The notes under the pieces: generated by a model | What the model was told of the DNA's origin: nothing | The model's database searches: none | Seen by the model: the letters and a program-made list of their open reading frames with translations, nothing else | Made by a program: the position numbers and the translations under genes | From: an uncultured Pelagibacteraceae bacterium | GTDB taxonomy: Bacteria; Pseudomonadota; Alphaproteobacteria; Pelagibacterales; Pelagibacteraceae | Reading direction: 5' to 3' | Length of the DNA: 42,234 nucleotides | Assembly: GCA_902633965.1 (NCBI GenBank) | Contig: CACPID010000007.1 | Coordinates: 1 to 42,234 of the forward strand | In this document: positions 19,932 through 25,293 of the stretch, piece after piece | Layout: each line of letters opens with the position of its first letter | How positions within the stretch are numbered: the stretch's first letter is position 1

Positions 19932-20843
19932 TTAGATTGCTAACCTGTATGCAAAATTTTTACCCAAATTTTCTTTAAGTTCATTATTAAATCTTGCTGC
20001 CTCAGCGCCATCAATAATCCTATGATCATAAGATAAAGATAAAGGTAGCATAATTCTCTCGTTAGATTTTCCTCCTGAGTGCGAATGAACTTTTCTCAAC
20101 TTTCCGATCCCTAGAATGGCTACCTCAGGAAAATTAATTATAGGAGTAAAAAAAGAGCCTCCTATGCCGCCAAGGCTGGTTATAGTCATTGAGCCACCGT
20201 AAAAATCCTTTTTATCTATCTTAAGTTTTCTGCACTTATCACTTGTAGTTTTGAGTTCCTCTGCGATTTGATTAATATTTTTTTGATCCACATTTCTTAT
20301 CTTTGGCACCATCAAACCATGCTCAGTATCAACAGCTATACCAATATGAAAATATTTTTTGATTGTCATTTTTCCATTTTCTATGTCATCAATTGAGCTA
20401 TTAAAAGAAGGAAACTTTTTCAAAGTTGCAACTAAAGCTTTGGTTATAAAAGCAAGAGGTGTTATTTTCTTTTTTTCACCAGTATGCAAATCCTTAAGTG
20501 AATTTCTAAAATTTTCCATATCTGTAACATCTGCTTCATCATGGTTTGTTACATGTGGAATTGTATTCCATGCATGCGAAAGGTGTACAGCAGCTATTTT
20601 TTTAACTCTTGGAATATCTTTGATTTCTATATCACCAAAATCTGAATGGGTAAATTCTGTTTTGAATTCATTTTTACTTTGTGTATTTTTTTCTTGACCA
20701 ACATGTTTAACAAATTTTTTAATATCCTCCTCAACTACTCTACCATCTCTTTGTGAACCTAATACTAAGTTGATATTAACTCCTAATTCTCTAGCAAACT
20801 TTCTGGTTTTTGGACTTGCTGGAACTCTTTTTTTTTCATTCAT
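19932..20843 (-). CDS. aceF: Pyruvate dehydrogenase E2 core lacking a lipoyl domain
   Basis: A 303-residue dihydrolipoamide acetyltransferase, far shorter than usual E2p (about 420-640). It begins directly with a peripheral-subunit-binding domain (RVPASPKTRKFARELGVNI...GRVVEEDIKKFV, about 7-46), then a charged linker, then the catalytic acetyltransferase domain ending with the active-site motif DHRIIDG (His274). No lipoyl domain with a DK(A/S) lysine is present anywhere in it, nor in frame upstream: the preceding gene ends 4 bases before this ATG. The missing domain is on the N-terminus of the adjacent aceE. It should still form the trimeric catalytic core and bind E1/E3 through its binding domain. 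Confidence 0.93.
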   Translation of the reverse strand: MNEKKRVPASPKTRKFARELGVNINLVLGSQRDGRVVEEDIKKFVKHVGQEKNTQSKNEFKTEFTHSDFGDIEIKDIPRVKKIAAVHLSHAWNTIPHVTNHDEADVTDMENFRNSLKDLHTGEKKKITPLAFITKALVATLKKFPSFNSSIDDIENGKMTIKKYFHIGIAVDTEHGLMVPKIRNVDQKNINQIAEELKTTSDKCRKLKIDKKDFYGGSMTITSLGGIGGSFFTPIINFPEVAILGIGKLRKVHSHSGGKSNERIMLPLSLSYDHRIIDGAEAARFNNELKENLGKNFAYRLAI

Positions 20844-20846
20844 AAT

Positions 20847-23800
20847 TTATAATTTGCTTGGAAAGGATCTTTTTGTATCAATATTATATTTTTTTATTGC
20901 ATCTTTGACTGGCTTAGATGAAATTAGTTGCTCATTTGACAGAACACTTAGTGCATATGTAACTATGTGTTCTTTATCAACCTCAAAGAATTTTCTCAAA
21001 TTTTTTCTGGTATCACTTCTTCCAAAACCATCAGTTCCTAGTGAATAAAAACTATTTTTTACAAAAGGTCTTATTTGCTCTGAATGACTTCGCATATAAT
21101 CGGAGGCTGCCAAGACAGGGCTATTTGATTGGCCCAAACATTGTTCTACATATGAAGCTTTATTTTTTTCATCTGGATTTAATAGATTGTATCTTTCAGT
21201 TTCCATACCATTTCTCGCAAGCTCATTAAAACTAGTTACACTCCAAATTTCACTATCAATTCCATATTCATTTTGTAGTATTTCAGCACCACTAATAATT
21301 TCTCTTAAAATTGCACCAGATCCAATTAGCTGAATTTTGGTTTTTTTATTTTTATTAAATTCTTTAAACTTATACATGCCCTTTAAAATTCCCTCCTCAC
21401 ATCCTTTATCTTTTGGCATAGCAGGATGAGGATAATTTTCATTCATAGTTGTAATGTAATAAAATATATTCTCTTTTTTTTCATGCATACGTCTAAGTCC
21501 TTCTCTAAAAATTACAGCAAGTTCGTAAGCAAATGTTGGGTCATAAGAAATACAATTTGGTATAGTAGAGGCTAGAAGATGACTATGTCCATCCTGATGT
21601 TGTAATCCCTCACCTGCCAAAGTAGTCCTACCTGAGGTAGCACCAATTAAAAAACCTCTAGCTTGACTATCACCTGCTGCCCAAGCAAAATCTCCAACTC
21701 TTTGAAAACCAAACATAGAGTAAAACAAGTATATTGGTATCATTTCAATATCATGATTTGTATAAGACGTTCCTGCAGCAATCCAAGATGCCATTGATCC
21801 TGCCTCGTTGATTCCTTCTTCTAGAACTTGACCTTTTTTATCTTCTCTATATGAACTTAATTGCTCAGAGTCCTCTGGTTCATATTTTTGTCCCTCATGA
21901 GCGTAAATTCCAATTTTTTGAAAAAAACCTTCCATACCAAATGTTCTAGCCTCGTCAGGTATAATTGGCACAAGTCTAGGTGCAACATTTTTATCTCTTA
22001 GAAGGTTTGTTAATAATCTTACTAATGCCATTGTTGTTGACATCTCTTTTTTTCCTGTAGACTCTTTTAAAAAATCAAAAATATCCTTTTGAGGAGCTTT
22101 TATTTGCTTGGCATAAGTAGTTCTTTCTGGAATGAAGCCACCCAGTTTGATTCTACGATCTTTTAAATATTTAATTTCCTCAGAATTTTCATCAGGTCTA
22201 AAATATTGAATTTCCTCTACCTGCTTATTGGTTAGTGGAACGTCAAATCTATCTCTGTAATACATTAAATCCTCAACACCCATTTTTTTTTGCTGGTGGG
22301 TGGTATTAACACTTTCTCCTGTTTTTCCCATTCCATATCCCTTAATAGTCTTTGCAATGATTACAGTAGGTCTACCTTTGTTTTTTGAAGCTTGATCATA
22401 AGCTGCGTAAACTTTATGTGGGTCGTGGCCCCCTCGGTTTAATCTCCATATATCCTTATCAGAGAGAGTGGATACCAGTTCCTTTGTCTCAGGATATTTG
22501 CCAAAAAATTTCTCTCTAACATATAAACCATTTCTTGCTTTAAAAGCTTGATATTCACCATCGACTGTTTCATTCATTATTTTTACCAGGTGTCCAGTTT
22601 TATCTTTTGCTAATAAAGGATCCCAATAAGAACCCCATATTACTTTAATTACATCCCAGCCTGCTCCTCTAAAAATACCCTCTAGCTCTTGAATAATTTT
22701 TCCATTTCCTCTAACTGGACCATCTAATCTTTGAAGATTGCAATTAACAACAAAAATTAAATTATCTAAGTTTTCTCTAGCTGCTAATCCAATAGCTCCC
22801 ATAGACTCTGGTTCATCCATTTCACCGTCACCAAGAAATGCCCATACTTTTCTACCCTCATCTTTTATAAGTCCTCTATTAATTAAGTATTTCATAAATC
22901 TAGCTTGGTAGATTGCCAACATAGGACCTATTCCCATAGAGACAGTTGGGAACTGCCAAAAATTTGGCATGAGCCAAGGATGTGGATATGAGGATAAGCC
23001 ACCTGGGTTTACTTCTTGCCTAAAATTATCTAATTGTTTTTCGCTCAACCTTCCTTCTAAGAATGCTCTGGCATACATACCAGGAGCACTGTGGCCTTGA
23101 AAATATATTAAGTCTCCTCCAAACTTATTGTTCTTTGCTCTCCAAAAATGATTCATACCAACGTCATATAAAGTTGCAGCAGATGCAAAAGTTCCAATGT
23201 GACCACCAAGTTCAGGAAATTTTTTATTTGCTCTTACGACCATTGCAGCAGCATTCCATCTAATTAAAGATCTTATCCTTCTCTCAATATTTTGATCACC
23301 GGGAGATTTAGTCTCTTTATCTGGAGATATGGTGTTTACATATGGTGTATTCCTTGAAAGTACTAAATCTGAACCTTGTCTATATGAATGCTCAATTAGT
23401 TGTTTGATTAAAAACTGAGCTCTTTTACTTCCATCTGTTTCTAAAACGGAGGATAATGAATCTATCCATTCTTTTGTTTCGATTGGATCAATATCTCCAT
23501 CTTTAACAACGTTTGAGATTCGATCCTCAGCAATTTTTATAGTTTCTTTTTGTATTTGTGGTTGGGAGGTATCTTTTATCTCTTTTTGAATTTCAGTTTC
23601 TTGAACATGTTTTATCTCTTTATGAATAGTTTTTTCTGCCTCTTCGATTAAATTTTTTGTACTTTTTGGAATTTCATCTGGTGATACCTTTCCATTTCCC
23701 TCAACTTCTAAAATTAAATCTCCTTTAGAAACTTTGTCTCCTACTTTAACATTAATATTTGATATTTTACCTTCAACTGTTGACGGAACTTCTACACTAG

Positions 23801-23927
23801 ATTTATCACTTTCAAGTGTGACCACTGGATCATTTTTCTTTATACTCTCACCAGCTTTTACTATGACTTCAATTATTTCTACTTGTTCAAAATCACCTAT
23901 ATCTGGAACTTTTAACTGAATTGACAT
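20847..23927 (-). CDS. aceE: Pyruvate dehydrogenase E1 (homodimeric) with N-terminal lipoyl domain
   Basis: Decarboxylates pyruvate with thiamine diphosphate and transfers acetyl to lipoamide. From ATG 23927 the 1026-residue protein starts with a complete lipoyl domain (about 3-78; lipoylation site Lys42 in TLESDKSSVEVPS), then a charged Glu/Lys/Ile/Gln linker (about 80-140), then a full AceE-type E1 (from about 143, GDIDPIETKEWIDSL), with the ThDP motif GDGEMDEPES near 366 and NCN near 395. The C-terminal SEQIRPFVKNSFYSLGTDGFGRSD is standard. The E1 part alone matches the usual 880-890 residues, so the lipoyl domain is an addition. The frame also opens with GTG at 23942, but the ATG gives the canonical lipoyl start. 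aceF follows after 3 bases. Confidence 0.95.
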   Translation of the reverse strand: MSIQLKVPDIGDFEQVEIIEVIVKAGESIKKNDPVVTLESDKSSVEVPSTVEGKISNINVKVGDKVSKGDLILEVEGNGKVSPDEIPKSTKNLIEEAEKTIHKEIKHVQETEIQKEIKDTSQPQIQKETIKIAEDRISNVVKDGDIDPIETKEWIDSLSSVLETDGSKRAQFLIKQLIEHSYRQGSDLVLSRNTPYVNTISPDKETKSPGDQNIERRIRSLIRWNAAAMVVRANKKFPELGGHIGTFASAATLYDVGMNHFWRAKNNKFGGDLIYFQGHSAPGMYARAFLEGRLSEKQLDNFRQEVNPGGLSSYPHPWLMPNFWQFPTVSMGIGPMLAIYQARFMKYLINRGLIKDEGRKVWAFLGDGEMDEPESMGAIGLAARENLDNLIFVVNCNLQRLDGPVRGNGKIIQELEGIFRGAGWDVIKVIWGSYWDPLLAKDKTGHLVKIMNETVDGEYQAFKARNGLYVREKFFGKYPETKELVSTLSDKDIWRLNRGGHDPHKVYAAYDQASKNKGRPTVIIAKTIKGYGMGKTGESVNTTHQQKKMGVEDLMYYRDRFDVPLTNKQVEEIQYFRPDENSEEIKYLKDRRIKLGGFIPERTTYAKQIKAPQKDIFDFLKESTGKKEMSTTMALVRLLTNLLRDKNVAPRLVPIIPDEARTFGMEGFFQKIGIYAHEGQKYEPEDSEQLSSYREDKKGQVLEEGINEAGSMASWIAAGTSYTNHDIEMIPIYLFYSMFGFQRVGDFAWAAGDSQARGFLIGATSGRTTLAGEGLQHQDGHSHLLASTIPNCISYDPTFAYELAVIFREGLRRMHEKKENIFYYITTMNENYPHPAMPKDKGCEEGILKGMYKFKEFNKNKKTKIQLIGSGAILREIISGAEILQNEYGIDSEIWSVTSFNELARNGMETERYNLLNPDEKNKASYVEQCLGQSNSPVLAASDYMRSHSEQIRPFVKNSFYSLGTDGFGRSDTRKNLRKFFEVDKEHIVTYALSVLSNEQLISSKPVKDAIKKYNIDTKRSFPSKL

Positions 23928-23986
23928 GTTTAATTTTACCACATTTTAATCTTTTTTTGGACAACCTTAAACGAGATAAATTGTGT

Positions 23987-24103
23987 ATGTTTAAATTATT
24001 AATCAAAAAATTAAAAAAAATTAACGATAAAGATGGTTTAGATGCTAGGTATTGGATACAAATGGCACTATTAAACAAAAATTACGTATCAACTAAAAAC
24101 TAA
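23987..24103 (+). CDS. Possible 38-residue protein, unknown
   Basis: A short plus-strand frame between two minus-strand genes: starts MFKLLIKKLKKI, contains DGLDARYWIQMALLNK, and stops at 24101-24103, sharing bases with the thiolase stop. The composition (a basic amphipathic start, then D/W/Y residues) looks more protein-like than random AT-rich translation, but there is no good Shine-Dalgarno (only CGAGA about 13 nt upstream) and I do not recognise a family. It fills the 172-bp gap upstream of aceE almost exactly. It may be a small protein or chance. Confidence 0.35.
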   Translation: MFKLLIKKLKKINDKDGLDARYWIQMALLNKNYVSTKN

Positions 24104-25221
24104 TCTCTTTCAAGACACATAGCTATACCCATTCCACCTCCAATACAAAGAGTAGCTAAACCTTTTTTTGAACTTCTTCTTTTCATCTCATGAAGCAAGG
24201 TTACTACTATTCTACAGCCAGATGCTCCAATTGGATGTCCTAAAGCAATTGCACCTCCATTTACGTTAACAATATTTTCAGGTATTTTTAATTCTTTAAT
24301 TACAGCTAAACTCTGCGCTGCAAATGCCTCGTTTGACTCAATTAAATCTAAATCGTTGATTTTCCAATTCGCAATCTCAAGAGCTTTTTTTGATGCAGGA
24401 ATTGGACCAGATCCCATGAGGGCTGGATCTACACCACAGGATGCCCATGAAACAATTTTACCAAGTGGTTCTAGATCTCTTTTTTCAGACTCGTTTCTTT
24501 TCATAATTAAAACTCCTGCCGCTCCATCATTTACACCTGAAGAATTACCAGGGGTTACTGTTCCATCTTTCTTAAATACTGGTTTAAGCTTAGTTAAATC
24601 TTGAAAAGTTATATTCGCTCTAGGATGTTCATCTTTAAAAGATTTATAATTTTCATTTTTAATAATCTCATCTTCAAACTTTTTTTTTTTAATAGCGTCT
24701 TGCACTTTTGATTGAGAATTTAATGCAAAATTGTCTTGCTCATCCCTTGTGATATTCCATTTTTCAGCAACATTCTCAGCTGTAACTCCCATATGATAAT
24801 TATTAAATGCATCAATTAAACCATCTTTCATCATTAATTCCTTGTTACATCTAGACATGCTTTCTTGGCCACCAGCTATTATTACTTTTGATGAATCTAG
24901 CAATAAGGATTGGTAGGCTAAGACTATTGCTCTTAGACCGGATCCACAAACCTGATTTACTATATAGGAAATTTTATCATGTGGAATCTTTGCTCCTATA
25001 GCTGCTTGTCTTGCTGGATTCTGTCCAACATTACTAGTCAAAACTTGACCTAAAATAACCTCGTCAATCTCGTCTGGCTTTATAGATGTTTGCTTTAAAA
25101 TATCTGTGATAACAATCTTTCCTAAATCATGGGCAGCTTTATTTCCCCACATTCCGTTAAATTTTCCTATTGCTGTTCTAGTAGCATTTACAATAACAAC
25201 ATCTTGGGAAGATTTCTGCAT
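24100..25221 (-). CDS. Acetyl-CoA acetyltransferase (thiolase)
   Basis: A biosynthetic-type thiolase that joins two acetyl-CoA or cleaves acetoacetyl-CoA. From ATG 25221 it has 373 residues. Active site: nucleophile Cys92 in NQVCGSGLRAI, the NEAFAAQS motif, GGAIALGHPIGASG (His), and the C-terminal CIGGGMGIAM Cys. It is shorter than the common 390-394; the segment between AGGQESMS and KDGLIDAF is about 15 residues shorter than in typical homologues. The frame extends to a TTG at 25230, but the ATG is more likely. Exact substrate chain length is not evident. It is a single gene, divergent from tRNA-Arg over 72 bp. Confidence 0.93.
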   Translation of the reverse strand: MQKSSQDVVIVNATRTAIGKFNGMWGNKAAHDLGKIVITDILKQTSIKPDEIDEVILGQVLTSNVGQNPARQAAIGAKIPHDKISYIVNQVCGSGLRAIVLAYQSLLLDSSKVIIAGGQESMSRCNKELMMKDGLIDAFNNYHMGVTAENVAEKWNITRDEQDNFALNSQSKVQDAIKKKKFEDEIIKNENYKSFKDEHPRANITFQDLTKLKPVFKKDGTVTPGNSSGVNDGAAGVLIMKRNESEKRDLEPLGKIVSWASCGVDPALMGSGPIPASKKALEIANWKINDLDLIESNEAFAAQSLAVIKELKIPENIVNVNGGAIALGHPIGASGCRIVVTLLHEMKRRSSKKGLATLCIGGGMGIAMCLERD

Positions 25222-25293
25222 AAGAAACAATTATTATTTGATTTAAAATTACATTAATAAATTATAAATATATAGTAAAAAAAATTTAAATAT

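Follow-up and report, generated by a model that had tools for sequence, protein, structure and literature searches.

Can a pyruvate dehydrogenase (PDH) complex work with its lipoyl arm on E1, the pyruvate dehydrogenase component, and none on E2, the dihydrolipoamide acetyltransferase? In textbook 2-oxoacid dehydrogenase complexes the lipoyl arms belong to an E2 core, from which they visit the active sites of E1, E2 and E3 (dihydrolipoamide dehydrogenase, Lpd). The question is raised by the aceE-aceF locus of an uncultured Pelagibacteraceae bacterium (GenBank assembly GCA_902633965.1, contig CACPID010000007.1), which lies within the 42,234-nucleotide stretch of DNA that we analyzed, here called the window, and in which AceE (E1) begins with a lipoyl domain and AceF (E2) has none. 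From comparative sequence evidence, we consider it very probable that the locus specifies a working PDH in which AceE is the sole arm carrier, the domain on E1 having been gained first and that on AceF then repeatedly lost.

A sequence-only reading of the locus had described AceE as a lipoyl domain, with its attachment lysine at position 42, joined by a charged linker to a complete homodimeric E1, followed by an AceF that starts directly at the subunit-binding domain, and profile searches bear out both descriptions. In the frame that opens at a GTG codon, Pfam Biotin_lipoyl (PF00364) matches AceE residues 9-79 (E 1.4e-18, 66.9 bits, cut-off 22.1) and NCBIfam TIGR00759, the model for homodimeric aceE, covers residues 149-1029 with 1444.9 bits versus a cut-off of 859.9. 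As to whether the substrate is pyruvate or 2-oxoglutarate, TIGR03186 scores lower than TIGR00759, at 1294.7, which is under its own cut-off of 1408.3, and aceE adjoins aceF. The open reading frame listing gives aceE as 20847-23942 with the GTG at 23942; translation probably begins at the ATG at 23927, as M6 in the GTG frame does not vary among five sequences, nor does M1 in the ATG frame among 18. Numbering from this ATG makes the attachment lysine Lys42. The nearest solved relative of the lipoyl region is an E2 chain of a PDH complex (E2p), in entry 7b9k (2.7e-42, three chain stretches combined). In an AlphaFold model that is usable for about the first 70 residues only (overall predicted local distance difference test score, pLDDT, 43.7; alignment of 18 close relatives), residues 1-70 adopt a beta fold with pLDDT of 75-86 in ten-residue blocks, and Lys42 falls in the turn that joins strands 34-39 and 44-48.

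The Pfam matches of AceF comprise PF02817 (E3_binding) at residues 7-41, PF00198 (2-oxoacid_dh) at residues 75-293 and nothing else; a lipoyl domain was sought with PF00364 and gave no match. Models of full-length AceF fall short of their cut-offs (TIGR01348, 308 bits versus 552; NF008814, 296 bits versus 722), and the best solved relative is again 7b9k (E2p, with 24 chains of that sequence; E 4.1e-65). Judged by these profiles, the window AceF is an E2p core and not a full AceF. The genes run in the order aceE-aceF, and since the aceF ATG follows the stop codon of aceE by 3 bases, the gap cannot conceal a domain.

A second E2p bearing a lipoyl domain elsewhere in the genome, for which the sequence-only reading had proposed a check, was found neither in the source draft nor in any of the other genomes searched. 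The source genome, a draft with 24 contigs totalling 903,680 bases, is 73.6% complete; in it, PF00198 matches the window AceF alone and PF00364 exceeds its cut-off in AceE and in one frame of 141 amino acids (aa), and in no others; by eye, this frame is AccB-like and adjoins an AccC-like frame. Because the draft is incomplete, the same whole-genome domain search was applied to 22 genomes with a lipoyl-less E2, the source included, and no second lipoyl-bearing PDH E2 was detected in them. Strong PF00364 matches number exactly three in 20 of the 22, namely AceE, a small frame (119-151 aa) and a larger one (436-454 aa); the source draft and G218 lack only the larger one. The small frame bears the biotinyl motif EAMKT and stands beside an AccC-like frame in all five cases inspected by eye, and the frame of about 440 aa is SucB by NCBIfam in both genomes scanned (G051, 99% complete, and G083, 98%). 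In G137 and G192 there is one extra PF00364 match, which scores just at the cut-off with about 22 bits, spans 28 model positions and lies in a frame of 447 aa. Ten further genomes from five genera likewise gave no second lipoyl-bearing E2p: eight show the same trio, AceE together with one frame of AccB size and another of about 440 aa, while G006 and G010 lack the last, G010 having a marginal match at a contig edge. Seven of the ten had been typed as having a lipoyl-less E2, and no AceF had been typed in the other three (G050, G087 and G112).

How widespread is this arrangement? Among named genomes, the best 80 of 583 AceE-like stretches all come from Pelagibacteraceae, Pelagibacterales or Candidatus Pelagibacter (SAR11). 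We also sampled 148 genomes of the order, 130 from the family of the window and 18 from its other family. AceE matches in the window's family start at query residue 13 or earlier, with the exception of second, lipoyl-less copies and of G201, which is cut by a contig end, and in 22 genomes of the sample a short AceF frame (299-329 aa) immediately follows AceE. A total of 161 SAR11 loci were then examined, consisting of the window, 80 hand-picked genome loci (including all 22 with a short AceF) and 80 loci from named records. AceE carries a lipoyl domain in all 161, single in 156 and double in five. AceF could be scored in 153 (of the other eight, seven gave no readable AceF and the frame of one, L176, is broken); it has no lipoyl domain in 46, one in 103 and two in four. 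Since the loci were selected by similarity to the window AceE and enriched for short AceF, 46/153 is not a natural frequency. The recurrence of this gene pair, AceE with a lipoyl domain and right behind it AceF without one, in these 46 loci, 17 of them named records, disposes of the concern that the window arrangement is a one-off frameshift or misassembly. The suggestion that the arrangement is perhaps lineage-specific also holds up, as the E1 lipoyl domain was met only in SAR11: none of 20 non-SAR11 AceE loci (ten with upstream frames above 1000 aa and ten others) has it, and the AceF has one to three lipoyl domains in 12/12 of those in which it is present. No AceE lipoyl fusion was seen outside SAR11 within the window's phylum, where the matches listed along E1 all start at query residue 118 or later.

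Several observations suggest that the E1 arm is in use. The attachment lysine is retained in 158/158 E1 lipoyl domains of 153 distinct SAR11 AceE sequences, including 42/42 of those accompanied by a lipoyl-less E2; an apparent loss of the lysine in 27 E1 domains, raised by a search for the ESDK pattern, was ruled out by the same alignment. In the four two-domain AceF proteins (L074, L076, L077 and L078) the lysine of the inner lipoyl domain is replaced in every case, so that this inner domain should not be lipoylated. The rate of change points the same way. Among path-disjoint pairs of relatives, the ratio of the difference in the E1 lipoyl domain to that in the E1 core has a median of 1.65 where E2 is lipoyl-less (10 pairs) versus 2.65 in the comparison pairs (25; Mann-Whitney p 0.010), and for core differences below 0.06 the values are 1.93 (5 pairs) versus 3.39 (20 pairs; p 0.038). 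As for the supporting enzymes, lipA was found in 10/10 genomes searched, the source included, and lipB in 8/10, and 12 of 13 genomes have one above-cut-off Lpd that by its coordinates adjoins the SucB-sized lipoyl frame of about 440 aa.

The sequence-only reading had taken the extra domain of AceE and the missing domain of AceF for a single transfer from E2 to E1. This part did not survive the comparison: both domains coexist in 107 of the 153 scored SAR11 loci, and E2 has changed state at least eight times. The domain on E1 is universal in the SAR11 loci and the state of E2 changes separately; thus the extra and the missing domain are separate events. In a FastTree phylogeny of 153 distinct AceE cores, rooted with ten non-SAR11 AceE sequences, parsimony requires at least eight changes in AceF lipoyl state, seven of which are forced by well-supported branches, and for AceF cores, in a tree from which the lipoyl columns were left out, the minimum is again eight, five of them forced. 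One pair, L050 (AceF without the domain) and L178 (with it), are sisters at 99%. In an early-branching SAR11 clade the E1 lipoyl domain is present and 10/10 scored AceF also have one; together with the outgroups, where the E2 has a lipoyl domain in 12/12, this makes repeated loss the simplest reading. The E2 losses would follow from the redundancy of the E1 arm, which seems to make the E2 arm dispensable. In a tree of the lipoyl domains themselves, the SAR11 E1 and E2 copies group with the PDH-type domains of AceF and Lpd, apart from those of SucB (100/100). This tree has 107 rows and 78 columns, omits E1 beta domains, did not reach a settled bootstrap and poorly resolves relationships within SAR11, and its 78 columns are too few for dating the gain of the E1 domain. 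We infer that the source of the E1 lipoyl domain was a domain of AceF type and that its acquisition preceded the radiation of the family. A lengthening of the E1 linker to compensate for the missing E2 arm was also entertained, the linker having a mean length of 65.8 with a lipoyl-less E2 (n=42) versus 56.1 with one E2 domain (n=99). The idea finds no support in path-independent pairs, of which, across four thresholds, an average of 2.1-2.4 out of 7 went one way and 0.2-0.6 the opposite way, with a median p of 0.5 to 1 in sign tests, and the difference in length is therefore treated as shared ancestry.

These data suggest a scheme for how the complex might operate, in which the lipoylation of Lys42, the catalysis, docking and geometry, and the direction of the evolutionary changes are all inferred. 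LipB and LipA would octanoylate AceE Lys42 and then convert the modification to lipoyl, and the thiamine diphosphate (ThDP) site of E1 would reductively acetylate the arm on the same chain or on that of its dimer partner. The charged linker would let the arm swing to the coenzyme A (CoA)/lipoamide channel of the lipoyl-less AceF core, where the acetyl group would pass to CoA, and a single Lpd, common to the 2-oxoglutarate complex, would reoxidize the arm. The subunit-binding domain of AceF would dock both E1 and Lpd. The N-terminal segment of E. coli E1 contributes to E2 binding, so an arm rooted there would start near the core. In such a complex the number of arms would follow E1, and only a docked E1 could deliver. 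Historically, an ancestor of the Pelagibacteraceae would have acquired a PDH-type lipoyl domain at the AceE N-terminus with AceF retaining its own, and the redundancy of two arms would have permitted the AceF domain to be lost repeatedly.

A number of points weigh against this interpretation. The slower-divergence comparison was designed post hoc, lipoyl-less lineages are few, and the clade mean ratios overlap (2.52 for the window's own clade, 0.94 for one clade with E2 lipoyl domains). The AceE tree has 60 weak inner branches out of 160, and the AceF-core tree is a quick IQ-TREE run that carries a long-branch warning. Parsimony also allows an early loss of the E2 domain with later regain; the counts alone give no direction, and loss is favored over regain only because of the outgroups and the early SAR11 clade. 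The source draft has no match to lpd or lipB and no lipoyl frame of about 440 aa, probably because it is only 73.6% complete, and G190 is also without a lipB match. L041, L206, L207 and L212 have a lipoyl-less AceF in which Asn takes the place of Asp in the DHRxxDG motif; Azotobacter-type E2p chains have Asn at this position as well. Finally, biochemistry, proteomics or structures of SAR11 PDH were not found in the open-access literature.

We considered whether the lipoyl-less AceF might instead draw on an arm from another complex. PDH would then borrow the lipoyl domain of SucB in trans, in the manner of actinobacterial OdhA with AceF, and the AceE domain would be accessory. Such supply of a lipoyl-lysine in trans is documented for actinobacteria (PMC10415282), and most genomes with a lipoyl-less E2 do have a shared Lpd and a frame of SucB size with a lipoyl domain. 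The invariant lysine of the AceE domain and its grouping with PDH-type rather than SucB domains nevertheless make this proposal improbable, as does the presence of the AceE domain in every locus, set against an E2 domain that several lineages lack, although the last argument has less weight since the loci were found with a lipoyl-bearing AceE query. In addition, lipoyl domains of the 2-oxoglutarate complex E2 (E2o) are poor acetylation substrates for the E1 of PDH (E1p).

It is very improbable, in our estimation, that the lipoyl-less AceF is decaying toward non-function in lineages that no longer depend on an E2-dependent PDH. The short AceF retains its subunit-binding domain and the region of the DHR motif in an open frame throughout the 46 loci and several lineages; and while an AceE-level match is missing from 8 of the 130 family genomes, those eight are drafts of 90-97% completeness that also lack an AceF-level match, and their number is about that expected from incompleteness. 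An artefact, in which a frameshift, misassembly or chimeric bin hides an E2 lipoyl domain, is scarcely credible. The broken AceF frame at L176 is of the kind that this explanation would predict, but in the 46 loci the AceF frame opens between -120 and +60 bases from the end of the AceE frame, leaving no room for a domain; moreover, the pattern recurs in many separately assembled genomes and 17 named records, and whole-genome domain searches found no displaced domain.

How does the proposed arrangement compare with known systems? It resembles the E. coli-type PDH in its E1 family (TIGR00759), in the type of its E2 core and subunit-binding domain and in the order aceE-aceF, and it differs in that the E. 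coli-type AceF has one to three N-terminal lipoyl domains, whereas the window has one on AceE and none on AceF. In Mycoplasma hyopneumoniae the PdhC is said, by Matic et al. in 2003, to lack a lipoyl domain, and the E1 is of a different type. The PDH E2 of Zymomonas mobilis retains its lipoyl domain; E1p in that organism is a heterotetramer (alpha2beta2), in contrast to the single homodimeric-type chain of the window. According to one paper (PMC7873978), a lipoyl domain is found on E3 in Alcaligenes, Neisseria and M. hyopneumoniae (PdhD), and Z. mobilis has one on E1, placed on E1 alpha in the text and on E1 beta in a title cited there. Thus M. hyopneumoniae shares with the window an arm off E2, though on E3, and Z. 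mobilis shares an arm on E1 (PMC7873978). An arm fused to Lpd was not found in the five lipoyl-less-E2 genomes with an Lpd match, G164, G083, G051, G093 and G105, whose Lpd frames (466-470 aa) contain no PF00364 match. The actinobacterial hybrid of PDH and the 2-oxoglutarate dehydrogenase complex, with its two-in-one OdhA and trimeric AceF (PMC10415282), likewise has an acyltransferase that uses the lipoyl-lysine of another polypeptide and a Phe-containing insertion at the E2 C-terminus; its arm, however, belongs to E2p, and the window has the arm on E1p and an AceF that is separate from E1. Both aceEF and additional copies of aceE come up in a paper on SAR11 subclade IIIa, whose available part makes no mention of lipoyl domains (PMC10030771). 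Lipoyl domains on E3 and E1 beta are already known; in the titles and opening lines of abstracts in the open-access literature, we found no report of one on SAR11 AceE or any homodimeric E1, nor of a homodimeric AceE as sole arm carrier.

The C-terminus of AceF is unusual as well. All 141 complete SAR11 AceF tails have a two-residue Phe-containing insertion (in an N-F-A or D-F-A motif), and six of the 141 extend by one further residue; the insertion was not found in five SAR11 SucB tails, one sister-family SucB tail or the non-SAR11 AceF tails compared. In actinobacterial E2, a three-residue Phe-containing insertion disrupts the contact between trimers and thereby makes the E2 trimeric (PMC10415282); the SAR11 insertion resembles it and differs in having two residues. 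The AceF structure model is poor (pLDDT 54.7, alignment of nine close relatives). We raise, as a tentative and somewhat unlikely proposal, that SAR11 PDH is pared down, with its arms on E1 dimers and the lipoyl-less AceF present, because of this insertion, as a free trimer rather than a 24-mer, so that no large particle forms. If this were true, E1 would be the actual arm carrier family-wide, and that would account for the E2 arm having been lost repeatedly.

The coordinates of the features are collected in Table 1.

Table 1. Features of the aceE-aceF locus, in window coordinates.
Feature	Position	Strand	Details
aceE, homodimeric pyruvate dehydrogenase E1 with N-terminal lipoyl domain	20847..23927	minus	1026 aa from ATG 23927
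AceE lipoyl domain	23706..23918	minus	PF00364
Lys42 codon, predicted lipoyl attachment site (ESDKSS)	23802..23804	minus	
AceE charged linker, between lipoyl domain and E1	23499..23705	minus	no above-cut-off Pfam domain
AceE E1 (ThDP) part, complete	20850..23498	minus	TIGR00759; PF00456, PF17831, PF22613
aceF, dihydrolipoamide acetyltransferase without lipoyl domain	19932..20843	minus	303 aa
AceF peripheral subunit-binding domain	20721..20825	minus	PF02817, 39.5 bits, cut-off 23.7
AceF acetyltransferase catalytic domain, with DHRIIDG motif	19965..20621	minus	PF00198, 251.1 bits
AceF C-terminal tail, invariant Phe (codon 19953-19955)	19935..20003	minus	2 residues longer than non-SAR11 AceF compared

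A scan for promoters and terminators gave no signal exceeding shuffled expectation. The gene adjoining aceE (24100-25230) encodes a thiolase of 376 aa, a little short relative to the models matched. Elsewhere in SAR11, the five AceE with double lipoyl domains (L072, L073, L075, L078 and L079) carry them in tandem at the N-terminus, with the lysine in both. A second, lipoyl-less AceE-like gene of about 885 aa and 51-55% identity (L216:4963-7614, L217:5011-7671 and similar ones) occurs in 19 sampled genomes, one copy being partial, and in none of the 22 genomes with a lipoyl-less E2; its neighbors are a TRAP transporter in L217 and D-amino-acid and 2-hydroxyacid dehydrogenase-like genes in L216. 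Its absence from the lipoyl-less-E2 genomes fits a second E1 that borrows the E2 arm, and may also be chance, as the pattern is clustered in the tree. The other family of the order (G118-G135) gave no AceE-level match in any of its 18 genomes, in which E1 alpha and beta genes were not searched for, and one E2 match to the AceF query in 16 of the 18, with none in two.

SAR11 bacteria are among the most abundant in the ocean, and the arrangement has practical consequences for how their genomes and proteins are read: a lipoyl-less AceF could be taken for a truncated protein, and searches for lipoylated proteins in marine metaproteomes would pass AceE over. More broadly, the SAR11 case suggests that E1 can be the sole site of the arm, contrary to the textbook E2-centered design. 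The family would thus provide several separate natural tests, each with close two-armed relatives, of which arm works and of whether its place limits flux or assembly.

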